From Bacteroidales bacterium (GTDB lineage Bacteria > Bacteroidota > Bacteroidia > Bacteroidales > WCHB1-69): a stretch of 40,531 nucleotides of DNA. The stretch covers positions 1 through 40,531 of the forward strand of contig JAIKYR010000078.1 of NCBI GenBank assembly GCA_024682995.1, given 5' to 3'. The notes below the pieces were generated by a model that saw only the letters and a program-made list of their open reading frames with translations, did no database searches and was not told the DNA's origin. Within the stretch, counting starts at the first letter, position 1, and each line of letters starts with the position of its first letter. Made by a program: the position numbers and the translations under genes. Shown here one piece after another: positions 3,499-39,110 of this stretch.

Positions 3499-4245
3499 AT
3501 GAAAAAATCTTTTTTTATAATCCTTCTCATCAGTTTGGGATTCCTGTCAGCCCAAGCCCAATTATATTCCACAACTTACATCAAGGATGATTGTCAGGGC
3601 AAGGCCATCAATTTCGGATTCGCATGCGCCCCCTCGTTTGACTGGATGTATCCCAAGACGGAAGACTATCAACGACATGGCTTCGTGGTGGGCGTCCGAT
3701 ACGGCATACCCATCAATATCAACCTCACCAAGGCGAAAAACTATTACGCCTATACGGGTGTTTTTATTGAACATATCGGAGGCACCATGACCTTTTTGGA
3801 CAAAATCATCCATTCCGATATCATTGAAGCCCAGCAGGCGGAGACCTTCCGCCAGTATCGTGCCACCTATCTGACCATTCCCGTGGGCGTGACGCTGAAG
3901 ACCAAGTCGCTTAACAACTTTTTCATCTGTGGCAACGCGGGTGTCTACAACAGTCTGCGGTTGTCTGCCTCCCAGCACGACACGTACAACTTCGCCGGAG
4001 AACTGTGGAGCCGTCAGAAGGGGCCTTCAACAGAAGCTTCCATCTGCAAGGAGGCCGCATTCGCCGGCCTCGGGTTCGAGTACTCCATCTCCAAGGACTT
4101 CCGTGCGGGGATGATGGTGAATTACGTTCACACACTCACGAACTATTTCAAGGGCAAGGGTCGCGCCCAGAACAGTCTGACTCACGCAGACCAGAAGGCC
4201 AATATCGGATACATTGAGTTAGAGGCACACATCAACTTCTTCTAA
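3499..4245 (+). CDS. Outer-membrane beta-barrel protein (PorT-like fold)
   Basis: A clear signal peptide (MKKSFFIILLISLGFLSAQAQ, cleaved near residue 20) is followed by about 228 residues with alternating polar and aromatic patches typical of an eight- to ten-strand barrel, such as HGFVVGVRYGIPINI, YYAYTGVFIEHIGG, FFICGNAGVYNSLRL and FRAGMMVNYVHTL. It ends in phenylalanine (AHINFF), a common outer-membrane insertion signal. The general layout matches the porin-like outer-membrane beta-barrel families abundant in Bacteroidota, but no specific subfamily motif is recognisable. It starts 12 bases after ruvB and ends 2 bases before the next ATG. Substrate or role is unknown. Confidence 0.75.
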   Translation: MKKSFFIILLISLGFLSAQAQLYSTTYIKDDCQGKAINFGFACAPSFDWMYPKTEDYQRHGFVVGVRYGIPININLTKAKNYYAYTGVFIEHIGGTMTFLDKIIHSDIIEAQQAETFRQYRATYLTIPVGVTLKTKSLNNFFICGNAGVYNSLRLSASQHDTYNFAGELWSRQKGPSTEASICKEAAFAGLGFEYSISKDFRAGMMVNYVHTLTNYFKGKGRAQNSLTHADQKANIGYIELEAHINFF

Positions 4246-24259: not shown

Positions 24260-24294
24260 AAAATAGAAGAGACCGTAAAAGTCTCTTCTATTTT
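24260..24294 (-). terminator. Strong intrinsic terminator after the PorV-like gene
   Basis: A perfect 14-pair stem: AAAATAGAAGAGAC (24260-24273) and GTCTCTTCTATTTT (24281-24294), loop seven bases. On the minus strand the stem ends in TTTT followed by ATATTTT. It lies 24 bases after the stop of the PorV-like gene and 25 bases before the greA start codon, so it should end the three-gene receptor operon. Confidence 0.85.
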
Positions 24295-24318: not shown

Positions 24319-25500
24319 CTATAAGGTGACTTTGATACCCATGACGTGATTGCCTTTCCACTTGTTGGTGAATCTGTAGGCATAGTCAATGTAGATACGG
24401 GCACCAGTGTTGCCTTTCTTCAAGGGGATAACGGCCGTGGCACCAACGGAAGGACCGGCAAAGAACGAATCGTTGTTGAACAGAATCGTATTGATATCAT
24501 TGCCTTCTTCGTCGGTCTCCGTACGTTTCGTGACATTCTCAAGGGCATAGCCGGCGCGAACCATGAAGTAGTTCATGAAGCCGTATTCAAGACCCAGAGC
24601 GAAAATGTCGCGAGAGTAGGAGTTGGCGGTGAAAGTACCAGCCAGTGTGATGCGGTGTGCGGCGTCATCGCGGGTGAGGCCTTCTTCTTCCAGTTCGGCT
24701 TTGGACATGCTGGCATATTCGCCGCCGAAGAACAGGAAGTCGTAGGAAATACCAATAGCCAGCAGAGAGGGCATCTCGTATTCGGCGGAACGTACAGCTA
24801 ACGTCTGTTCAACCGATGTGTTGTTGATGCGGCCTCTGTAGGACATACCGTCACCCTTGTAAGACATGGGCAGACCAATGTTCTTCAAGGTTACGCCGAT
24901 TTTGAAGTTCTCAAATTTACCGGCAATGTACTGCACACCAGCGTCAATGGCGAAGCCCGTGGCATGCAAGTCGGCGATGCGCTCGTTCACAATCTTCAGG
25001 GAGACACCACCCTTGATGAAGTTGTTGAACGATTTGGCATAATGGATGCCGATAACGGAGAGGGAGGGGGAGAAGGTTCCCAAACCGCCATCCGGTTGGT
25101 TGACTGTGGTGATTTGTACGTTACCGAAGCCCATGGATGAGAAGGAGATGGCGAGCGTACCAAAATCACGGGTTTTGCCAAGATGTTGGGCAAAGGCCAG
25201 TGCGTTGATGTTAATGCCGCAGTTGGAACCTACCAGATATTGGGTGCGGTTGAACGCGAACTCCGTCTTTTTCACGTACGTCAAACCGGCCACGTTGGAA
25301 TAGACAGACTCCAATCCGCGGATTTCAGCCACGCCGGCATTCGCCATACCATTGGTGCGTGCCCAAGGGTCTATCAACAGGTGCGATGCACCAGCCTGAC
25401 CGGAACGGTCTCTGTTACCTGCCAGTACGTTATAGGACGTACCGACAGATAAAAGAGCAATCAATGTGCAAATTATTAATGACTTATATATATTTTTCAT
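24319..25500 (-). CDS. PorV/PorQ-like outer-membrane beta-barrel protein
   Basis: A 393-residue exported barrel: signal peptide about 1-27 (ending YNVLA), then the family N-terminus HLLIDPWARTNGMANAGVAEIRGLESVYSNVAGL. That pattern (small-residue-rich first strand, then N-x-A-G) is typical of the PorV/PorQ (UPF0164) group with a FadL-like fold. Further strands are evident, for example FGTLAISFSSMGFGNV, DIFALGLEYGFMNYFMVRAGYALENV and ARIYIDYAYRFTN. PorV shuttles type IX substrates to the attachment complex; paralogues of unknown role are common. Its place 28 bases after a 1602-residue exported protein suggests a dedicated partner. It is the last gene before the terminator at 24260-24294. Confidence 0.82.
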   Translation of the reverse strand: MKNIYKSLIICTLIALLSVGTSYNVLAGNRDRSGQAGASHLLIDPWARTNGMANAGVAEIRGLESVYSNVAGLTYVKKTEFAFNRTQYLVGSNCGININALAFAQHLGKTRDFGTLAISFSSMGFGNVQITTVNQPDGGLGTFSPSLSVIGIHYAKSFNNFIKGGVSLKIVNERIADLHATGFAIDAGVQYIAGKFENFKIGVTLKNIGLPMSYKGDGMSYRGRINNTSVEQTLAVRSAEYEMPSLLAIGISYDFLFFGGEYASMSKAELEEEGLTRDDAAHRITLAGTFTANSYSRDIFALGLEYGFMNYFMVRAGYALENVTKRTETDEEGNDINTILFNNDSFFAGPSVGATAVIPLKKGNTGARIYIDYAYRFTNKWKGNHVMGIKVTL

Positions 25501-25528
25501 ATTCTTGAGTTTTTACAGATTAATAATT

Positions 25529-28500
25529 TTAGAAACCATTCAAGTCTGTTGGGCGCATTGCGCAGAAGAACCGTAATGTGCGTTCGCCGAAGCCGTCGGC
25601 TTTCACATGGATGATGTAAACACCGCCGGAAATCGGAATGTTGGCGTGGTTCTTCAAATCCCATTGTACGTAAGAATCCGTATTACCCTTCGTGATGGTC
25701 CGGATTAGCGTGCCGTTGACCGTGTAGATGGAAATGGTACACTTCTCAGGAAGGTTCACGATGCGGACATAGTTCTGCAGAGCGGTCTGCTCATACTGGG
25801 AGAATCCGTAGTACGGGTTCGGAACGATGTTGATGTCGTCGAGCACCTCTTGAACCTGTTCTACTGACTCTGATTTGACGGGAGCAAGGTTCTTGGTTGT
25901 GAACGTGTACATCGGATAACCGTCGTTCTGATCTGCGTACGGAGCTGTACTTGCATCATCGTACCAGCGGGAGGAGTATCTCAAATAAGGACGTGACACG
26001 CGAATCTTGATGGTGGCATCGCAGGAGAGCCAGTTGTCTTCCAATCCAAGGTAAGGCATAGGAATGCTGGTGTACATCACATTGTTGAACAACTGCATCT
26101 TCATCTGCATACGAGCCGGGTCGGCCATGTTTTTCTTTCCAATGAAAGATTTGAACTTTTCACCCAGCCATTTACCGCCATCATACGCACCACAATCGTA
26201 CCATGCAAAATATCCACCGTCGGAGCTGGTGATATATCCACCATGGCGTTGTCCGTTACGTGTGATGTTCTTGTCGGAGTCGTTGAAATTACGTTTGTCT
26301 CTTTTTACAAGTTCGTCGTAAACCAAACTGCACGTGTTGCCGGAGCTTCCACAGATATAGACATAGTGACGACCGCCGTTCTGCGGCTCACCATATTCGA
26401 GTGCATATTGACCGTAGTTGTCACGAATCATGTTGAATGTGCTTTGGTTCATACCCTGCGGATTGCCTTCCTCATCAAGAATGAATTCTTGGGTAGAGGC
26501 ATCACGATACCATGCGTACACATTTGTCGGATTGAAGAGCATGTCACTACCGTTGTTGTAAGGATCTTGGGAGTTTTCAGCGAACATAATGTTCAGACGC
26601 TCGCCAGTCTCCACGTTGATGGCATAGCCCGGGAACCAGCCGTAGCCGGTGGCACCGATGTAGTTCGGGTCGTTCGGGTTGTTGCTGGCCACGTCATCGT
26701 TGCCCGTGTACGGATTACCGTCTTTGTCCACTGACGGACAGTTCTTGGGTTCGTGACGATAGTTGACGTAAGTCTGTCCATTGAATTCCTGTTTTACTTT
26801 ATAGGATTCCGTCTCGTGGCTGGCGCCAGCTTCTAAGACCAGTGCGCGGGTCCACAGGCTCTTGTCCGGTGTGAGCACAATGTCAACGGAGTACAGGTTG
26901 GTCATGGTCTGGTTATAACCGGGGTTCCACATGGATCCCGTGAGAGCGCGGAAATCAAAATACATGGGTGCAGGACCTTCATCACCTTCAGAAAGGAAAG
27001 CCACGTTGTCGGGGATGATGTACTTGGCCTGCGGACCGCCGTCATACGGGGATGAAAGCACATATGGTGACCATAAGCCGCCGAGGATGCCTTCGAACTG
27101 TTGGTTGGGATCCTTGAATCCACGAGTGGTTTCACTGGCATTCAAGGTTCCGGGTTTCAGGATGCAGCACATATCCTCCGTACGCCATTGGAAATACTTG
27201 TTCTCTGCACCTTCCTGACCTGCATACTCCTCACCGATACCCCAGTCGTACCATTTTCCGGACTCTTGGCTACCGGAATGAATCCAGTTGGCAGGATAGT
27301 CACCTTCCATGTCGTGAACACCCGACAACCAAGGCAGCCCATCACCGTAGTCGATAGTGGCACCAAGGAAGTCCACTTGTCCGTACATGGTAAGGGATTT
27401 GTAATTGTAACCCAAACTGTCAGCCACATATTCGTCAAGATTCTTCTGATAAATCTTGAAGTTGTCGTTGATGATGGAGATGGAAATACCGAGGTCGAGG
27501 AACAACTCCTCGTTTGTCATGCTAATAGGCATGGCAGCCGTATTAACACGTTTGATTCCCAACTCTTCCAGTTCGGCATCAGAGACTTCATCGCTGATGA
27601 CTAACTGCCATTCGGTCTGGTCGTTCACATCGTTGTCCACATCGTTGGGTAACAGGCGGATGGTGTAGTCGTAAGGCTTCACCTGAAGCGGGTCCACCAC
27701 CTTGATGTTCAACGGACCGTAGTTGTTCTTGTATTGAATATTGTTGAAGGTGTTGAGTTCGAGTACTTTCTGTCGGGATTCATCCGTCATGTCCAAGAAG
27801 AAACCTCCATTGCCCTGTCCTTCGATACGGGTGATCATGGGCTGGTCGCCATAGACACTGTTTTGGATGATGCCGGAAGATTTGTGCGGAATACCTACGT
27901 AAGGATGAATGTTACGACGACCGGCCAGATACGGGGTCTGCTGTCCATCCAAAAAGTCAGGATCAAGTTTGAACTCCTTGTATTGGTTGTAACCGTAGGC
28001 GATAGCCATAAAGTAGTACTCTTTGTGGTTTACCAGAGCCTTGTTGGTACCGGTAGCGAATTTGTCTTCCGTCACAGTGAAAGAGTGGTAGATGCCTTCG
28101 TTGGCTCCGTTGACCATTTCAGTGGCAACGGATGTACCGATAGCTTCATTGTAAATCCAGTTCACAATCTGTCCCGCGTTATTCTTGATGTCGCATTGGG
28201 CAATCAGAATAGCTTTGTTCGGGTCGTTCAGATCGGTGGCACTGACAGATCCGTTAGCCAACTGATAAATCTGGTATCCTTCAAAGTAGTAGCGGCGTTG
28301 TTCTGTAGAGAGCGTGTCCTCATGTGTGACAGCCACGATGTTGGAGGTAATCACCGTATCGGGATTGCCATCGGAGTCATATACATATAAGGTATCGTAC
28401 GTCTTTTCAAACGTGGAAGTGGATAATGTCTTGGAGATCTGCGGATCCAGCTCGTAGTAGGTCTCGTGGTAGTTGTTGCTGTTCTTATCTTCATTGGAGA

Positions 28501-30337
28501 TGTAGATCACCAGCTCGTTCTCAAGTTCGCGGATGGTCAAATCCGGAGCATCAGGACCGTCCAAGGTCTTGAAACAGTTCTCGAACAGGGTCTGGCACTT
28601 GTCATCTGCCAGTTTCAGCAATTCCACAGAGGCTTGTGCGCCGCCTTGGGAGGCACGTGCCCATGGAATACCTACGGTGATGTAGTTCACGGAACCGGGT
28701 CTCAAGGTGAAGGGGCCTGCAGACTGCATGAAACGACGGTCTGCGGGAGCGTTACCCACATTGGCTTCTGTCCAGCCGCCAGGACCGTAGGTGGTTGCAG
28801 AGGGATCCACACCTTTTGTTCCCCAGTTACAAACGTCCGTCATAGCAGGGAACATGAAGTCACACTCCGGACCGTTACCGCCTACCGTGTAGTGGGCATT
28901 GCCGCCGTAGCGCATTTTGGTGTTGTCTTTCCAGATACCTTGCAGCATGTTGTAGTATTCGAATGCCACATCCGGGTCACCCACCACGGAGTTGTCGTTG
29001 TTGTGGTACACGAATCTTCTCATACCGAAACGTTCGTTGTCAATGATATCATCTCCGAAGTTCACACCGTTGATGGCCATCTGGTCGTTTATGAACTCGC
29101 TCTTGAGGAACTTGTCGCAATATCCGGCGAAAACTGCGCTGTCCGGATTGAATTTCGGGTTGTCACGGTTATCGGGATCCATGTAAGGGCCTTGGAAGAA
29201 GTCCACACCCACCGCAGGGGGCTGGTCGCCGTAAGCCTTGGTCTGTCCGTTACCGTCCACGTTGGAACCGTTGTAGCAGTAACCTAAACCACGGGCCACA
29301 TCGCAACCTACATAGTCGTCTTTCTCATAACCCAAGTCAGGGTCAACCCATTGGGAGAAATAGGTGTTGGTCAACGTGTAGGAGGAACGGTTGATAATCT
29401 CATAGGAATAGAACGTCATGTTGTTCAGGTCGTCGTTGGTGGAGAATCCGAAGCACTGACCGCGGATTTCCAGACCGATGGGGCTACCTTGGGATTCGGT
29501 GTGTGCACCACCGTTATCGTTGAAGATCCAGAACAGGGTCTCATCACCCTTCAACACATGGTCTGCGTAAATCATACCGTTGGAATTGTGCCAGTCGTAC
29601 TGATAGTCTCCGGAGCTGGCGCTACCATAATTCCGATATTCTGTCCACAAATCCTCAGGGGTTCTCGGCAGCTGATGGGCGGCAGCCAAGGCGATGTTGT
29701 CCTCCGTCCAGGGACAGAGATCGTTGTTGATGTCATAGTAAGGGTAGTCGCCAGCTTCAGGGTCGTACACACCGTTTTCATTCACATCTTTGAAAGGGGC
29801 CAGATAGTAGGAATAGCCTTCATCGCCGTGGGCGGGCCAGTTCAAGATGCTGGCAGGGGTCACATAACCGCTGGTATTATAGCCGGAGATGTGATTGTCC
29901 ACTTCCGCACGGGAGATCTTGAAGAGTTTGTCGAATTTGATACACTCGGTCTGGGTTGTACCGGCACCGGCAATCTTCAAGGGACCAGTCCAATAGTCGT
30001 CACCACGTTGTCTGAAACGAACGGCAGCCAATTTCAACTGGCCGTTGGCATCCTGACCGCCAATCCACAAGGCGGCAGAGAACATGGAGGTTTTGCCGGA
30101 ACCCTTAGGCACTTCGTATTCGGCTACTTCCTTGAACCACATCGTACCGCCGGTTTCAATGTATGCACGTACGTTGTTCACCGAAAGCTCGTTGGAGTTA
30201 CTTGCCGGAAGACAGGTGGCTGATTCCGCTTTTGGAGAGTGTCTATGTACTCCTTTGACTTTTTCGGCTCGCACGGTACCGAAGACCATGCAGACCATCA
30301 GGAGTGTCAAGCAGAAAATTTTGTTATTGTTTTTCAT
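25529..30337 (-). CDS. Large exported surface protein with type IX-like C-terminal domain
   Basis: A 1602-residue protein with signal peptide (about 1-24, MVCMVFGTVRA), no internal membrane helices and a beta-rich sequence. The N-terminal block NNVRAYIETGGTMWF and AALWIGGQDANGQLKLAA (54-105) is, from memory, shared by a group of uncharacterised Bacteroidota proteins. A calcium-binding-like loop DVNENGVYDPEAGD is at 184-197. The last 100 residues form a sorting-type domain: VPNPYYGFSQYEQ, IYTVNGTLIRTI and SGGVYIIHVKADGFGERTL, like type A type IX C-terminal domains, but they end FFCAMRPTDLNGF instead of the usual lysine-rich end. The function is unknown; no enzymatic motif was found. It lies between the receptor and PorV-like genes with 28-base gaps on both sides. 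Confidence 0.8.
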   Translation of the reverse strand: MKNNNKIFCLTLLMVCMVFGTVRAEKVKGVHRHSPKAESATCLPASNSNELSVNNVRAYIETGGTMWFKEVAEYEVPKGSGKTSMFSAALWIGGQDANGQLKLAAVRFRQRGDDYWTGPLKIAGAGTTQTECIKFDKLFKISRAEVDNHISGYNTSGYVTPASILNWPAHGDEGYSYYLAPFKDVNENGVYDPEAGDYPYYDINNDLCPWTEDNIALAAAHQLPRTPEDLWTEYRNYGSASSGDYQYDWHNSNGMIYADHVLKGDETLFWIFNDNGGAHTESQGSPIGLEIRGQCFGFSTNDDLNNMTFYSYEIINRSSYTLTNTYFSQWVDPDLGYEKDDYVGCDVARGLGYCYNGSNVDGNGQTKAYGDQPPAVGVDFFQGPYMDPDNRDNPKFNPDSAVFAGYCDKFLKSEFINDQMAINGVNFGDDIIDNERFGMRRFVYHNNDNSVVGDPDVAFEYYNMLQGIWKDNTKMRYGGNAHYTVGGNGPECDFMFPAMTDVCNWGTKGVDPSATTYGPGGWTEANVGNAPADRRFMQSAGPFTLRPGSVNYITVGIPWARASQGGAQASVELLKLADDKCQTLFENCFKTLDGPDAPDLTIRELENELVIYISNEDKNSNNYHETYYELDPQISKTLSTSTFEKTYDTLYVYDSDGNPDTVITSNIVAVTHEDTLSTEQRRYYFEGYQIYQLANGSVSATDLNDPNKAILIAQCDIKNNAGQIVNWIYNEAIGTSVATEMVNGANEGIYHSFTVTEDKFATGTNKALVNHKEYYFMAIAYGYNQYKEFKLDPDFLDGQQTPYLAGRRNIHPYVGIPHKSSGIIQNSVYGDQPMITRIEGQGNGGFFLDMTDESRQKVLELNTFNNIQYKNNYGPLNIKVVDPLQVKPYDYTIRLLPNDVDNDVNDQTEWQLVISDEVSDAELEELGIKRVNTAAMPISMTNEELFLDLGISISIINDNFKIYQKNLDEYVADSLGYNYKSLTMYGQVDFLGATIDYGDGLPWLSGVHDMEGDYPANWIHSGSQESGKWYDWGIGEEYAGQEGAENKYFQWRTEDMCCILKPGTLNASETTRGFKDPNQQFEGILGGLWSPYVLSSPYDGGPQAKYIIPDNVAFLSEGDEGPAPMYFDFRALTGSMWNPGYNQTMTNLYSVDIVLTPDKSLWTRALVLEAGASHETESYKVKQEFNGQTYVNYRHEPKNCPSVDKDGNPYTGNDDVASNNPNDPNYIGATGYGWFPGYAINVETGERLNIMFAENSQDPYNNGSDMLFNPTNVYAWYRDASTQEFILDEEGNPQGMNQSTFNMIRDNYGQYALEYGEPQNGGRHYVYICGSSGNTCSLVYDELVKRDKRNFNDSDKNITRNGQRHGGYITSSDGGYFAWYDCGAYDGGKWLGEKFKSFIGKKNMADPARMQMKMQLFNNVMYTSIPMPYLGLEDNWLSCDATIKIRVSRPYLRYSSRWYDDASTAPYADQNDGYPMYTFTTKNLAPVKSESVEQVQEVLDDINIVPNPYYGFSQYEQTALQNYVRIVNLPEKCTISIYTVNGTLIRTITKGNTDSYVQWDLKNHANIPISGGVYIIHVKADGFGERTLRFFCAMRPTDLNGF

Positions 30338-30365
30338 ATATACCTATTTTTTTTATTTCAAACTG

Positions 30366-33300
30366 TTAAAAACCGAATTGTAAGCCTAAGCTGGCACGGA
30401 TAGGACGGCTGTAATTGTAGGGATCCTGAACGGTCATCGTGTAGTAGTTGATGTAGGAAGGAACATAGATCTGGGAGTTGATCACCTGCTGATACTCTGC
30501 AGAGGAGAGGAAACCATCGTCATCCGGGTTGCCGGTGTAGTCATAAACGTAAACAATGTTCTTGAAGTTGAAAAGGTTCTGGATGTCAACATAGACGGTC
30601 AGATAACCCGGTTTTGCGGATTTTGCATTGCCGTCCTTGTCCTTGGCGTTCTTGTTCAGATTGAAGACGAAAGTCTTGTCGATACGTAAGTCGCACTGGA
30701 ACTGCCATGGGGTGTTGGAACCGTTGATGGAACCGGAGACCTGGCGGGAACCGATACCCGTGATGGAATACGGGGTGGAAGAACGTGTGTAAGGAGTACC
30801 GGAAGCGGCGGAGAACAACAGGGAGAATCCTGTATTAGCCAGCCATTGGATGGTCTTTGTGGTCGGTTTTCCGTCCACTACGACCTGCTTCTCGGTCTTA
30901 GGCCCGTTGTAGTCGGTTCCATTCTCGAAACGATAGTCCAAGTTGACACCGATTCTATGTCTCTGGTCAAAGGAGAGGAGGGCAAGAGTTCTCAAGTTCG
31001 GTTGTCCTTCGGAAAGGATGGAGAGCTGGTCGGTCGTGCTGGAACCCGTACCCTTGGCGTATTGCAACGTGTAGTTGGCGGAAAGGGTGAGGTTCTTGGT
31101 CCGGTTCATCTTATAGGCGAAGGTGAAACCTTGCACCGTACCGAAGTCAATGTTCTGATAGGAATAATAGGTGTTCGGATATGCGCCGGAGAAACGATAA
31201 GCCTGGATCTGGTTACGTTTTTCGGAATAGTAGGCGCTGATACTGATGGAGGATTTGTTGCCGATCTTCTGACGGAAACCGATTTCGTAGTCGATACTCT
31301 GCTGCGGTTTCATGTTCGGGTTGTTGACGATGTTTCCAGCGGAATTACGCTTGGAGATGAACAGATAGTCAACCGGGGAGATCTGCAGGTTGGTGGGACG
31401 GGAGGTGATGATGTTGTAGTGTGCGTAGAACAGGGAGTTGTCAGAAACAGGGAAGGAGAAGGAGATACGCGGCATGACAGACCACTGTGCTTTGTATTTC
31501 TCGAAAGCAGAGGATTCGACCTTGGTGTTTCTGTTCTTGTCGATTTCGTTCTTAAGGAGCGGACCGTTCACATAGAGGGAAAGTTCGGATTCGGGGTCAA
31601 CCACCTCTTGACCGGCGGCGTTGTACCAGGTGTCGCCGTTACGGTAACCCACGATGGATGAAGCGTTGAACTCGGTACCGGCAATGCCTTCCTCACTCAT
31701 GTAGTTGTCAATGCCCGTATAATAGACCACCCAGTTGTCTTCGGCGTTGCCGGCGAATTTGATCTTACTGTTGAGGTTGCGGATGTCTTTAACCGTATAA
31801 GCTTCGCGGAACAAATAGGGGTCTTTCAGCACTTCCTGGTTGGCATCGAAGCGGTCAACACGCAAACCGATGTTGAACAACAGGGAGTTGATGGAGAATT
31901 TATCCTGCAGGTAGAAAGCCATGTAGATGGGTTCGTAAGCACCGATGTTGTAGGTGCGCTGGCCGTTATTGTCCACAGCGTCAAAGAAGTCCATGATAGA
32001 GGTCTTCTTGTTGATCTTTTTACCTGTGTAGTCATAACCATAATAGTTGACCAGGGAGGAGGAACCGGAGGATGTTCCAGTGAGCAGCTCCTCTGCAGAG
32101 AACATGTTGACGTTGAAAGCCGTAGGATCCAGGTCGTCAATGTCAATCCAGTCGGATCCGTTGGGATCCAAACCGAGGGATGTACGCAGGTTACGGTCAA
32201 AGACCGTCTGGTCGGTCAGCACGTTCAAGCGGTTGTAGTCCACATAGATGATGTCTCTTTCCATGTCGGGATCATAACGGACATCGAAGATGGGGTGTTC
32301 CTTGTCCAACTCGGTGATATGCTTGTTTGTTTCGGTTCTCATCAACTGCCACAGGTAGAAGGATGAGATGCCATATCCGCGGTAGGTCAGTTTTTCAAAA
32401 TCATAACCGAATTTAAGTTCGTGGTTCTTCAGGTTCATGGAGATGCTGGCCTTCACACCGAACTGCTCGGTCTGGCTCTTGCTATAGCTGCCGGAGACTG
32501 CACCGGGGCTGCTGTACATGCCATAGATGCCGTCGGCGCCGTCACCGTTACGGAGTGCGCCAAACTGCTGGTAGAGGTTCAGGTCGATGGGGTATCCCTC
32601 ACCAAGATAGGTGTAGAGGTCTTCCAAGGAGTAATTCTCAATGAAGTTCTGCGTGTAACGGGCGAGAAGCGGGTTGCAGTTGAAGTTCGGGTTGATTTGG
32701 AAGGTCACGAGTGAGTCGTACCAGCCTTCAAACTCTTTGGCTCCTTGCACCGTGATGGAGTTACCTTCCTCGGAAACCTGCAGTTCATCCTTGTATTCGG
32801 AATAGCCTTTCACCCGCTGGGTGGAGAACTTGCCGATATAACCGTATTCGAACAGTCTGTCTTTATGTTGGGTGGCGTATGAGTTGGAGTTGAAGAGGGT
32901 GTAGTTGACGTTGATGTCGTACATGATGTTCTTCAACGTAGCCTTACCCGTGGTGTCGGTGAACACACGGTGGTTCAAACGGGCATTCACACGCAAGGTG
33001 TTGTTGATGGTGGTCGGAGTCTCGACTTTGAACAGGGCTAATGAGCGGCCCCATGATTTTCCCTTGATGTACTCGTAGGATCCACCGAGGGAGAGACGCA
33101 TGTTGTGCTTCTTGCCGAGGGTGAAGTCGAACTTCAGCTGGCCAAGGTAGTCCCAAGTGCCGGCGTTTTTCTTCACACGCTCCTTATGGAACGATTCGCT
33201 GGTGAGGTAGCATGCCTCCTGATACCAGGCACCGAAACTGGTCGGGTTGTAGCGGAGAGGATTCATGCTGATGTCCTCAATCACATCGTCGTTGGCCACC

Positions 33301-34166
33301 CAATAGCCGCCTCTCAGCGGACGGCTGTCATGATCGTAGGAGATTTCCCCGCTGAAGAGGAAACCGATACGGGTGGGGTCGTTTTTATTCTTGCCTTTCA
33401 ACAGCGGACCGGAAATGGATACAGCACCGAGGAAGTTGTTGTATCCGTCGATGGATCCTCTTAACTCCACAGATCCGTGGAAGTCCTTCGGGGCGGACTT
33501 GGTGGTGATGACCGTGAAGGAGGTACCGTCACCATACTCGGCGGGAATACCGCCCTGGATCAACTGGGCCTCCTCGATGGATGCCATGGAGACGCTACCG
33601 TTACCACGCACACGCACACCGTCGATGATGGTCTGCTGACCGTCGGCACGGTTACCACGCACAGATGACATGGCACCATCCACACTTGACACACCCTCCA
33701 GGTTGGCTAAGGCACTGGTTACGGAACGGCCAGGGGTGGTACGCACATTGTCACCGCTGATACGGCTTGTAGAACTGGTGTTATCCGGGTCAAACACAGG
33801 TGGTTCGTATCGGATGATAACCTCCTGCACTTCAGTCGTACAGTCAATGGTGAAGTCAATGAACATCACCTGGTTAGAACCCACCTTGATACCCGTCTTG
33901 GTCTGTGACTTCTTACAAGTCATCTGAGCGTCGGCAGTCAAATCGTAGGTGCCGACTTCCACACCAAACATTGAGTATTCACCTTTGTCATCCGCCATAC
34001 CCATGTTCACAACCTTGTCACCAATCTTCAGGTAAACCCTGGTGTACCCCAACGGCTCTCCCGCTTGGTCCACCACCTTACCCTTGATTTGGGACTGTGA
34101 AAATGCCATGCTTGTGAAAAGGATGATCACTCCGAGAGTAGAGAGTAATTTTTTAATCATAGCCAT
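30366..34166 (-). CDS. TonB-dependent receptor with carboxypeptidase-regulatory-like domain
   Basis: A 1266-residue outer-membrane receptor. The signal peptide (about 1-23, FTSMAFS) is followed by a carboxypeptidase-regulatory-like domain (25-110, IKGKVVDQAGEPLGYTRVYL), a TonB-box-like EVQEVII (112-118) and a plug (about 130-225) with SALANLEGVSSVDGAMSSV, QTIIDGVRV and GGIPAEYGDGTSFTVITTKS. A long barrel ends in GLQFGF. Near the C-terminus is a DxDG-like loop (TGNPDDDGFLSSAEY). No SusD gene is adjacent, so it is not a standard SusCD glycan pair. It heads the operon with the 1602-residue protein and the PorV-like barrel. ATG codons at 34166 and 34160 are both possible starts. The ligand is unknown; protein export or assembly is an alternative to uptake. 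Confidence 0.9.
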   Translation of the reverse strand: MAMIKKLLSTLGVIILFTSMAFSQSQIKGKVVDQAGEPLGYTRVYLKIGDKVVNMGMADDKGEYSMFGVEVGTYDLTADAQMTCKKSQTKTGIKVGSNQVMFIDFTIDCTTEVQEVIIRYEPPVFDPDNTSSTSRISGDNVRTTPGRSVTSALANLEGVSSVDGAMSSVRGNRADGQQTIIDGVRVRGNGSVSMASIEEAQLIQGGIPAEYGDGTSFTVITTKSAPKDFHGSVELRGSIDGYNNFLGAVSISGPLLKGKNKNDPTRIGFLFSGEISYDHDSRPLRGGYWVANDDVIEDISMNPLRYNPTSFGAWYQEACYLTSESFHKERVKKNAGTWDYLGQLKFDFTLGKKHNMRLSLGGSYEYIKGKSWGRSLALFKVETPTTINNTLRVNARLNHRVFTDTTGKATLKNIMYDINVNYTLFNSNSYATQHKDRLFEYGYIGKFSTQRVKGYSEYKDELQVSEEGNSITVQGAKEFEGWYDSLVTFQINPNFNCNPLLARYTQNFIENYSLEDLYTYLGEGYPIDLNLYQQFGALRNGDGADGIYGMYSSPGAVSGSYSKSQTEQFGVKASISMNLKNHELKFGYDFEKLTYRGYGISSFYLWQLMRTETNKHITELDKEHPIFDVRYDPDMERDIIYVDYNRLNVLTDQTVFDRNLRTSLGLDPNGSDWIDIDDLDPTAFNVNMFSAEELLTGTSSGSSSLVNYYGYDYTGKKINKKTSIMDFFDAVDNNGQRTYNIGAYEPIYMAFYLQDKFSINSLLFNIGLRVDRFDANQEVLKDPYLFREAYTVKDIRNLNSKIKFAGNAEDNWVVYYTGIDNYMSEEGIAGTEFNASSIVGYRNGDTWYNAAGQEVVDPESELSLYVNGPLLKNEIDKNRNTKVESSAFEKYKAQWSVMPRISFSFPVSDNSLFYAHYNIITSRPTNLQISPVDYLFISKRNSAGNIVNNPNMKPQQSIDYEIGFRQKIGNKSSISISAYYSEKRNQIQAYRFSGAYPNTYYSYQNIDFGTVQGFTFAYKMNRTKNLTLSANYTLQYAKGTGSSTTDQLSILSEGQPNLRTLALLSFDQRHRIGVNLDYRFENGTDYNGPKTEKQVVVDGKPTTKTIQWLANTGFSLLFSAASGTPYTRSSTPYSITGIGSRQVSGSINGSNTPWQFQCDLRIDKTFVFNLNKNAKDKDGNAKSAKPGYLTVYVDIQNLFNFKNIVYVYDYTGNPDDDGFLSSAEYQQVINSQIYVPSYINYYTMTVQDPYNYSRPIRASLGLQFGF

Positions 34167-34290: not shown

Positions 34291-34662
34291 TTAGTACTTC
34301 CTTTTGAGGATTTCAGCGTAAATGACCCCTTTGTAGACTTCTGTGGCATCCATTGTTAATCCATGGATGTTATCTGCTTTATTATCAGATGGTTGTGGCT
34401 GTTCTTTTATCTCTAAATCGGATGTTTTTTCCAAGGGTTCATCCAAATCCGTAAGTGTTTCGTATGTGAAGTATTCGGTTTGATTTCGCAAATTCGGCGC
34501 GTTTTTTTGCATTTCAAGTGTTTCATGAAACGCCTCCTCTTCCTCTTCTTCCAGAATGGGAATAGTTTTGGCAGGAGCTTTTTTTTCTCCTTTGACCAAT
34601 TTGATAATGGTGGGTGCCAACCCAAGGAGAATCAAAATCAATATACTTAAGAAATCTTCCAT
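34291..34662 (-). CDS. Small membrane-anchored acidic protein, function unknown
   Basis: A 123-residue protein with an N-terminal hydrophobic segment (about 4-22, FLSILILILLGLAPTIIKLV) that is probably a single membrane anchor. A very acidic stretch follows (EEEEEEAFHETLE) and the protein ends with VIYAEILKRKY. The pattern of short N-terminal helix, acidic linker and conserved (V/I)IYAEIL-R-Y end resembles small uncharacterised proteins common in Bacteroidales, from memory. No function is assigned. It is the last gene of its run, 43 bases after YihY, and is followed by a terminator. Confidence 0.7.
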   Translation of the reverse strand: MEDFLSILILILLGLAPTIIKLVKGEKKAPAKTIPILEEEEEEAFHETLEMQKNAPNLRNQTEYFTYETLTDLDEPLEKTSDLEIKEQPQPSDNKADNIHGLTMDATEVYKGVIYAEILKRKY

Positions 34663-37770: not shown

Positions 37771-38622
37771 TTAGAGGATTATGGTTTTGAGACTCATGTC
37801 AAGGCTGGCGATATGGTGTGTGAAGGCACCCACGGAGATGAAGTCCACCCCGGTGACGGCGTAGTCGTGCAGGGTCTCCTTGACGATGCCGCCGGAAGCT
37901 TCCGTCTCGAAGCGGTGGTTGACAAGTGCCACGCCCTCGCGGATCTGGTCGGGGGTGAAGTTGTCGAACATGATGCGCTGCACGCCGCCATGTTCGATGA
38001 CGCGCCGCACGTCGTCCAGACTGCGGGTCTCAATCTCAATATTGAGGTGCAGTCCGTGCTCTTTCTGGTAGGCGTTGGCCGCGTCAATGGCCTTTTCGAT
38101 GCCACCGGCGAAGTCTATATGATTGTCTTTCAGCATCATCATATCATACAGACCAAAACGATGGTTTTGTGCTCCGCCCACCATGACGGCATATTTCTCG
38201 AAAATGCGCATGTTGGGTGTGGTCTTGCGTGTGTCGAGCAAGGTCACGGCGGTGTCCTTCACCAGCTCCACATATTCGTGGGTGGTGGTGGCGATGCCGC
38301 TCATGCGTTGCATGAAGTTGAGCAGCGTACGCTCGGCGGTGAGCATGCTTCTGGCCGGACCGTGCAGCTGGAAGACGATGTCGCCCTTGCGGATGACGTC
38401 GCCGTCCTGCATGAACTGCTCCATCTGGATGGTGTCATCCACCTGGCGCAGCACCTCGCGGGCCACGTCCACCCCGCAGAGGATGCCGTCCTGCTTGACC
38501 AGCAGCTTCATCTTGCCGGGAGCATCGGCGGGAATACAGGAAAGGGAGGAATGGTCGCCGTCGCCAATATCCTCTTTCAGCGTCAGCTGGATCAGTTTGC
38601 GGATGTCTTCGGTTATCTTCAT
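37771..38622 (-). CDS. nadC: Nicotinate-nucleotide pyrophosphorylase (carboxylating)
   Basis: NadC converts quinolinate and PRPP to nicotinate mononucleotide in de novo NAD synthesis. The 283-residue length fits. Motifs are EDIGDGDHSSLSCIP near the N-terminus, ERTLLNFMQRMSGIATTTHEYV, DTRKTTPNMRIFEKYAVMVGG with the basic quinolinate-binding residues, HRFGLYDMMMLKDNHI, and the C-terminal barrel segment RIMFDNFTPDQIREGV. Its ATG overlaps the upstream lipoprotein stop by four bases. nadA and nadB are not in the window. Confidence 0.97.
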   Translation of the reverse strand: MKITEDIRKLIQLTLKEDIGDGDHSSLSCIPADAPGKMKLLVKQDGILCGVDVAREVLRQVDDTIQMEQFMQDGDVIRKGDIVFQLHGPARSMLTAERTLLNFMQRMSGIATTTHEYVELVKDTAVTLLDTRKTTPNMRIFEKYAVMVGGAQNHRFGLYDMMMLKDNHIDFAGGIEKAIDAANAYQKEHGLHLNIEIETRSLDDVRRVIEHGGVQRIMFDNFTPDQIREGVALVNHRFETEASGGIVKETLHDYAVTGVDFISVGAFTHHIASLDMSLKTIIL

Positions 38623-39110
38623 TTTTTTACAATAATTTCAGTTGTTTCAACAATGTTGCTGGTATGCAAAGCCCGATCCACCAGCTGGCATGACAGCTTT
38701 ATGGTGTCGTAGGGCGAGAAGTAGTTGTTGATGAAGGTGGTGATGGTGATGTTTCCTTCAATGGACTCGGGCAGATTGTGGCTCAGGTAGGGCAGACGGG
38801 CATGCAGCGGGGTGGGAAGCTCCACCTGAACCCATTCGCCGTGCTGTTTTTCATAAAAATGGATGAAAAGATTGTAATAGAAAGCCGAATCCTTGGAGAA
38901 TACACCGGAGGTGTCACCCGACTCCAAGCCGATGTCCCCATCTCCGTCGTGGAAATAGAGCGTGAGGTCTGCCTGGTCGTCCACCCCCGTCCCATTGTCA
39001 ATCTTCTCGATCCCGACAAATTCAATGTAGGGGATTTCGGAGAAAGGAGTGGGGCGTTTGCAGGCGGCGAACAGCAGCGTGCACACGACGATGAACAGGG
39101 CTTTCTTCAT
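38619..39110 (-). CDS. Lipoprotein of unknown function
   Basis: A 163-residue lipoprotein: signal MKKALFIVVCTLLFAAC with the lipobox cysteine at residue 17. The mature part is beta-rich and includes DLTLYFHDGDGDIGLESGD, a DxDGD-type loop that could bind a divalent ion, plus a C-terminal sheet. Such single-domain lipoproteins are common in Bacteroidales and their function is unknown. The stop overlaps the nadC start by four bases and the upstream hutH ends 13 bases before its ATG, so it is in a run with both. Confidence 0.82.
   Translation of the reverse strand: MKKALFIVVCTLLFAACKRPTPFSEIPYIEFVGIEKIDNGTGVDDQADLTLYFHDGDGDIGLESGDTSGVFSKDSAFYYNLFIHFYEKQHGEWVQVELPTPLHARLPYLSHNLPESIEGNITITTFINNYFSPYDTIKLSCQLVDRALHTSNIVETTEIIVKK

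Follow-up and report, generated by a model that had tools for sequence, protein, structure and literature searches.

One review sorts the cargo proteins of the type IX secretion system (T9SS) into type A, for which PorV is the carrier, type B, which has a PorP/SprF barrel to itself, and type C, named only recently (PMC10202324). On leaving the translocon SprA, type A cargo is described as carried by PorV (PMC10994853); type B cargo is described as binding to, and being anchored by, a PorP-type barrel of its own (PMC9143113). The review also proposes, with PorZ/PorQ and type B cargo as examples, that cognate PorV-like barrels shield the C-terminal domain (CTD) of a protein from cleavage (PMC10202324). 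In a Bacteroidales draft genome (GenBank assembly GCA_024682995.1), a stretch of 40,531 nucleotides on contig JAIKYR010000078.1 (the window) carries a three-gene unit that consists of a TonB-dependent receptor, a large exported protein (the client) and an outer-membrane barrel of the PorV family. The pairing of such clients with such barrels is a widespread unit without a name, seen in roughly half of the species sampled from the phylum; by analogy, the trio fits the cognate-barrel protection rule as a further pair.

The trio resembles several described systems and departs from each of them. PorP/SprF barrels with type B cargo (SprF-SprB, PorP-PG1035) are similar in that the cargo gene usually lies by its own barrel, which anchors the cargo (PMC9143113, PMC10202324). 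However, the barrel of the trio belongs to the PorV family, the type B models TIGR04131 and PF13585 were not among the families matched by 56 client relatives at E 0.01, and a TonB-dependent receptor is part of the set. Cargo-dedicated barrels are already known for type B, from which the trio differs in barrel family, CTD class and receptor. PorU-PorV and PorZ-PorQ also combine a PorV-family barrel with a retained CTD protein, as the trio may do, and PorZ and PorU are the named proteins that most client relatives match, whereas the barrel and CTD of the trio fall in separate clades, its client matches no enzyme family and a receptor is added. As in SusC-SusD, a TonB-dependent receptor stands beside a large surface protein, and some trios lie in sugar-utilisation loci; the differences are that no SusD was found with the trio, that the SusC/RagA model is not among the NCBIfam matches of its receptor, and that its surface protein appears to be exported by the T9SS and not to be a lipoprotein. 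An alginate utilisation locus of Rhodothermus marinus is reported to hold, in a row, a TonB-dependent receptor, a protein with a T9SS type A sorting domain and a PorV/PorQ family protein, together with alginate lyases. Its client gene is shorter (2181 nt), and its sorting-domain and PorV/PorQ proteins are listed by annotation, for one locus and with no function assigned in the part of the account available (PMC9530828). No account of the trio as a system was found in searches of the open full-text literature.

Conservation of the gene order and of the client-barrel pairing

The adjacency, sizes and common strand of the three genes, their 28-base gaps (30338-30365 and 25501-25528) and the terminator behind them, all claimed in a preliminary description of this DNA, held when the frames were re-read; so did the lack of SusD, none being found among the window proteins scanned. 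The recurrence of the gene order, which that description had suggested for other Bacteroidota, was examined in a phylum sample of 395 genomes, 180 of which have relatives of the client. Neighbourhoods were read for 38 loci from other sample genomes (L043-L051, L054-L082; at most two per genome), two from the own genome and 79 named loci. The count of the order covered all frames, took as neighbour a gene within 600 bases on the same strand, and required a complete C-terminus with at least 3.5 kb before and at least 1.5 kb after. In other sample genomes, 25 of 26 long-tailed relatives lie between a receptor and a barrel (the miss is L065). In the named set, which is biased towards this CTD class because the search pattern was derived from the CTD and the best 80 rows were taken, the fraction is 49/66, seven pieces being left unclassed. 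None of the ordinary-tailed relatives has this position (0/8 in other genomes, 0/1 in the own genome, 0/2 in the named set); L072 has an ordinary end with a long loop and was not counted as long-tailed. Since the order recurs among client relatives at 24-42% identity, the trio is more than a chance arrangement.

The 17 exceptions of the named set comprise four split-frame pieces with a barrel behind (L096, L128, L140, L151), three second clients with a barrel directly before (L103, L117, L159), two second-client pieces (L140, L151), and eight clients that stand alone (L106, L114, L115, L118, L126, L131, L136, L137). Two clients thus share one barrel, in the order receptor-client-barrel-client, in L103, L117 and L159, and with split frames in L140 and L151. 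Sixteen genomes whose named loci hold a client lacking a barrel directly behind, with no barrel anywhere in the locus and a receptor in L104, were searched with the module-barrel profile, and 14 of them hold a module barrel elsewhere (450-533 bits; other matches at most 102 bits). Homologues without the other two genes, which the preliminary description had held to speak against its own proposal, are found among ordinary-CTD relatives and as a minority of lone copies. Its idea that the barrel serves this one large client survives only as a tie to a client class: the loci with two clients and the 14 lone-client genomes with a barrel elsewhere show that the tie is not to a single client.

The pairing is also seen outside the window's class. 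A search of 12 genomes of other classes with the CTD profile gave 85 domains (E<=1e-8); 65 of these have a PorV-family gene immediately behind them on the same strand, with 77-318 bases between the matched regions; at CTD scores of at least 60 bits the fraction is 49/55 (both counts used the 129 barrel matches listed of 147 found). Ten of the 20 unpaired CTDs sit 5.8-8.7 kb before a PorV-family gene. All six such loci read (L230-L235) hold a permuted set of client, one or two further genes, receptor and barrel, the receptor lying directly before the barrel in 6/6. Two of the 500-540-aa genes before the receptor in this permuted kind have no Pfam match, and some have lipoprotein-like starts as judged by eye.

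As a control, ordinary CTDs (PF18962) were examined in three of the 12 genomes, against 42 of their 43 barrel matches. Among the 150 ordinary CTDs listed (188 found), 0/150 have a PorV-family gene immediately behind them, versus 26/31 for the CTD class (Fisher 9e-27); 13 of the 150 listed end within 4 kb behind a PorV-family gene. The receptor is also a regular member: 13 of 14 paired loci picked have it immediately 5' of the client (the miss is L240), as do all 12 paired loci with short clients (608-878 aa).

Of the 395 genomes, 188 hold the CTD class and 186 match the barrel profile, 183 having both, at thresholds set once (CTD E 1e-12, barrel profile E 1e-30). Only the CTD class is found in G005, G309, G328, G344 and G388, and only the barrel profile in G113, G164 and G211. 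Client-CTD and barrel distances correlate within kinds (r 0.76, 0.57 and 0.68; 0/999 permutations each), as would also be expected from joint inheritance alone.

The closest named relatives of the client, among the best 80 rows, are from Bacteroidales drafts (up to 74% identity), many of them from herbivore rumen, gut or faeces to judge by the isolate names. The window kind is present in eight genomes of the window's class.

Classes of the C-terminal domain and of the barrel

The host genome is a 2.59-Mb draft, 87.75% complete. It holds SprA (contig C97), adjacent PorU and PorV (C155; PorV at 461.9 bits against a cut-off of 250) and PorQ (C21), so a genome without T9SS machinery, which the preliminary description had considered fatal to its proposal, is not what was found. 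The ordinary type A CTD model has 100 matches in this genome (E up to 0.001), none of them on the contig of the window. At E 1e-8 the genome yields just three PorV-family genes, namely PorV, PorQ and the barrel of the window.

This barrel passes the PorV family model NF033709 (122.4 bits, cut-off 90), and lies far below the cut-offs of the equivalogs PorV (58.1 against 250), PorQ (58.2 against 220) and PorV2 (45 against 325). All five module barrels scanned (from the window, L090, L188, L235 and L251) behave alike, scoring above the family cut-off but below that of every equivalog. When 81 PorV-family proteins were placed in a tree, the module barrels grouped in a single clade (SH-aLRT 99), distinct from the presumed PorV rows (99) and from two other groups. 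The one differently labelled row inside the module clade (L178) is a barrel of genome G045 that adjoins a greA-like frame and stands directly behind a CTD of the module class. When the tree rows were scanned for NCBIfam labels, PorV was confirmed in 4/4, PorQ exceeded its cut-off in 5/6 and PorV2 in 4/7; the other three rows of the PorV2 group are under the cut-off, yet have PorV2 as best match. In a tree of 90 rows, the window kind (99), the second kind (99), the permuted kind (97), PorV, PorV2 and PorQ each have a clade to themselves, while the barrels of the short-client kind are not monophyletic, requiring three changes. Both trees are quick ones without bootstrap.

By its sequence the CTD of the client is a class of its own, barely detected by type A models and separate in a tree. 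All module CTDs fall in one clade (97) of an 80-CTD tree, which has few columns and some long branches, apart from PorU, PorU2-like and ordinary ends. No Pfam or NCBIfam family is matched over its cut-off by the window client. The C-terminal halves of 56 relatives match, at E<=0.01, TIGR04183 (52 of 56), PF18962 (10), the PorZ model (50) and the PorU model (34), all modestly (best E 4.4e-11). No type C-named CTD model was among these matches, the presence of such a model in the libraries being unchecked. The PorZ-model match of the window client lies in the CTD and spans the model end (651-740 of 757). The nearest solved protein to the CTD profile is 5m11 (E 0.0017), which is PorZ (PMC11285876); further solved matches are weak (E>=0.15), three of them being of one unrelated protein, followed by PorU 6za2 at 0.19. 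In the own genome, PorU ranks second (E 3.7e-5), behind only the client itself, other cargo reaching 0.015 at best among 30 candidates scored. Five NCBIfam-named PorU ends and three PorU2-like ends score 22.0-28.4 bits with the CTD profile, and 13 ordinary ends score 4.6-16.0. Three frames of about 1650-1675 aa (L212, L214, L215) resemble, at their ends, the C-terminal part of the PorU model, with scores under its cut-off, and each of their genomes also has a PorV2 gene that passes the PorV2 model (L185, L179, L184); from the sequences, these are perhaps PorU2-PorV2 pairs.

A near-invariant lysine is described in type A CTDs (PMC10994853), and the CTD of the window kind extends 13 residues past its site. 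The extension is kept in the window's kind and absent from the second-kind ends read. As a mark of barrel pairing it was considered and rejected, because clients of the second kind have the ordinary type of CTD end and are nevertheless paired. Extra C-terminal residues are reported to have left export undisturbed in P. gingivalis (PMC11285876). Residue 1589 (window 25571-25573) is an arginine in place of the lysine, likewise in L110, L145 and L154, and a lysine in most relatives.

Full-length client relatives read are mostly of 1000-1600 aa. For the first 900 residues of the client, no solved relative was found by sequence profile at E 1, and stray weak Pfam matches appeared in 3/56 relatives. 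Residues 43-554 or so are common to two own-genome frames of 623 aa and 5494 aa, both with an ordinary type A CTD match. Therefore, this first third of the client appears to be used with two kinds of C-terminus.

A possible uptake unit and its alternatives

One possible scheme, which we consider rather probable, is that the trio forms a SusCD-like outer-membrane uptake unit, its surface protein being exported by the T9SS and kept uncleaved on a dedicated barrel. The client would be T9SS cargo that reaches the cell surface, where its CTD would be taken by the neighbouring PorV-family barrel and not by the general PorV. The barrel encoded alongside speaks against the type A route of transport by the general PorV and cleavage by PorU. 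This barrel may then hold the client on the surface without cleavage, in the way that PorV retains PorU, and PorQ retains PorZ. Placed beside the receptor, the client may act as a surface binding or lid protein in contact with it, and the receptor would import a ligand, powered by TonB. Such a unit would act like SusC-SusD with the surface lipoprotein swapped for a T9SS-exported protein on a barrel.

The comparison with SusCD is drawn because the loci of relatives resemble the usual setting of SusC-SusD, which is a sugar-utilisation neighbourhood with such regulators and enzymes as described here. In a domain scan of 10 neighbour proteins of six loci, LacI-type regulators were found near two trios (L253, L260) and xylose-isomerase-like proteins near two others (L252, L255). 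The locus L251 (G050) has, in order, a PfkB-type carbohydrate kinase, the receptor, a 791-aa client, the barrel, alginate lyase and heparinase-like genes, and a short-chain dehydrogenase, an arrangement similar to the R. marinus alginate locus (PMC9530828). In the receptor of the window, residues 112-120 carry acidic and hydrophobic residues followed by Y-x-x-P, which we read by eye in the alignment as a candidate TonB box; P123 is kept in at least 90% of 41 aligned window-kind receptors, one of which is blank at the motif. Because this motif and the alginate locus point to ligand import, the suggestion of the preliminary description that the receptor energises export is not supported. We infer instead that the T9SS would carry out the export and the receptor the import. 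SprA is present in 303/395 genomes, and in 180/180 of those with a client relative (kinship ignored).

Several findings weigh against this reading. Lone clients exist, and the module-barrel profile finds nothing in two of the 16 lone-client genomes searched (G405, G410). Within the order and class of the window, 92 genomes have SprA, and only 8 of them, own genome included, hold a client relative; therefore, the trio is not a core T9SS part. The C-terminus of the window client stays below the cut-offs of the type A models TIGR04183 (17.8-20.4 bits against 23) and PF18962 (13.6 against 27). In profile-profile comparison the module CTD scores 57 with PorU, 58 with PorU2-like and 49 with ordinary ends, and PorU scores 77 with ordinary CTDs; a 'PorU-like' label for the module CTD is weak, since PorU stands nearer to the ordinary CTDs than to the module CTD. 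The C-terminal extension is unnecessary for the pairing. The co-occurrence searches scored at most 11 CTD and five barrel candidates per genome, and their statistics ignore kinship. The unit of the window lies among housekeeping genes and not near sugar-utilisation genes; for this reason, the uptake role of the window's kind is carried over from its relatives. Because of these surroundings and of the one or two copies in each window-class genome that has it, a common nutrient is a likelier ligand for the window's kind than a special polysaccharide.

The client might instead be an adhesin, coat or structural protein displayed on the surface without uptake, the receptor being only a neighbour or docking partner. 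This is unlikely, though it deserves serious attention: the pairing of CTD class and barrel is what it would predict, type B cargo anchored by its own barrel offers an analogy (SprB-SprF, PG1035-PorP; PMC9143113), and the window's unit lacks sugar-utilisation genes nearby. However, 31 of the 32 additional loci read have a TonB-dependent receptor next to the client or the barrel, the window's kind has the TonB-box-like motif, and some trios lie inside sugar-utilisation loci. That the trio is a machine resembling the PorU-PorV-PorZ-PorQ attachment complex, processing other surface proteins or lipids in T9SS or outer-membrane maintenance, seems improbable. The matches of C-terminal halves to the PorZ and PorU models, as well as the low copy number in the window's class, agree with it, whereas up to 13 CTD-class domains in one genome suggest many ligands and not one machine, the client is missing from 84 of the 92 genomes with SprA in the order and class of the window, and no enzyme domain was matched in the client.

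It is very improbable that the barrel is itself a FadL-type channel for hydrophobic substrates, with the client as binding protein and no carrying by the T9SS. PorV is placed in the FadL family (PMC9143113), and the barrel profile weakly matches TbuX and TodX (E about 0.01), but its best solved relative is PorV (6h3i, E 4.8e-17), the barrel is paired with a T9SS-like CTD, and SprA accompanies every client relative in the sample. Hardly any weight falls on an old gene order kept without shared function. A greA-like gene also follows the trio in several window-class relatives, and therefore part of the order is inherited; nevertheless, the trio recurs in several kinds and in several places per genome, ordinary CTD genes show no such pairing, and lone clients mostly share their genome with a barrel.

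If the uptake reading is extended to the phylum, Bacteroidota would have a further class of T9SS cargo, with its own CTD and a cognate PorV-family barrel for each client, which together with a TonB-dependent receptor forms a SusCD-like importer. Outside the window's class such importers would often be present in several copies and might replace SusCD, while the window's kind, which has the C-terminal extension and is conserved through the phylum, would serve a common ligand. We are evenly divided over this wider proposal. If true, a CTD class that in most cases has its own barrel and a TonB-dependent receptor would tie type IX secretion to nutrient import in the 188 genomes of the sample that carry the class. 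It would also help to explain the 6-18 PorV-family genes found in each of the 12 genomes of other classes, and would give a predictive rule, namely that CTDs with a barrel of their own stay uncleaved.

Layout of the window and minor features

The coordinates of the unit and of its parts are collected in Table 1, with the two own-genome relatives of the first third of the client.

Table 1. Features of the three-gene unit and related frames (window positions unless a contig is given).
Feature	Size or residues	Position	Strand	Remarks
TonB-dependent receptor	1266 aa	30366..34166	minus	CarboxypepD_reg, Plug and TonB barrel over Pfam cut-offs
CarboxypepD_reg domain	receptor residues 26-106			Pfam 38.2 bits, cut-off 32.3
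TonB-box-like motif	receptor residues 112-120	33807..33833	minus	N-terminal to plug; recognised by eye in alignment
Plug domain	receptor residues 129-215			Pfam 26.8 bits, cut-off 23.9
TonB barrel domain	receptor residues 561-1087			Pfam 46 bits, cut-off 27
Large exported protein	1602 aa	25529..30337	minus	proposed T9SS client
Putative signal peptide, N-terminal	client residues about 1-25	30263..30337	minus	read from sequence by eye
CTD	client residues 1495-1602	25532..25855	minus	own CTD class
C-terminal extension	client residues 1590-1602	25532..25570	minus	after conserved Lys/Arg (R1589 in window)
PorV-family outer-membrane barrel	393 aa	24319..25500	minus	proposed dedicated carrier and anchor
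Intrinsic terminator		24260..24294	minus	3' of barrel gene, 5' of greA
Relative of client's first third (L052)		G000:C21:6116-7831		host genome
Relative of client's first third (L053)		G000:C73:8570-9943		host genome

In four loci from different lineages (L047, L049, L057, L070), a gene 5' of the receptor on the same strand has a start that resembles D-3-phosphoglycerate dehydrogenase by eye, which is not the case in the window. Three frames of the window have no Pfam match (34291-34662, 123 aa; 38619-39110, 163 aa; 3499-4245, 248 aa). Other genes of the window include recA, ruvB, greA and an LptF/G-type gene, and greA and a HIT-family gene lie 3' of the terminator. The terminator has a 15-pair stem and a T tail, its stem being the longest among nine such sites in the window; nine sites against a shuffle mean of 11.1 indicate no enrichment of terminator-like sites overall.

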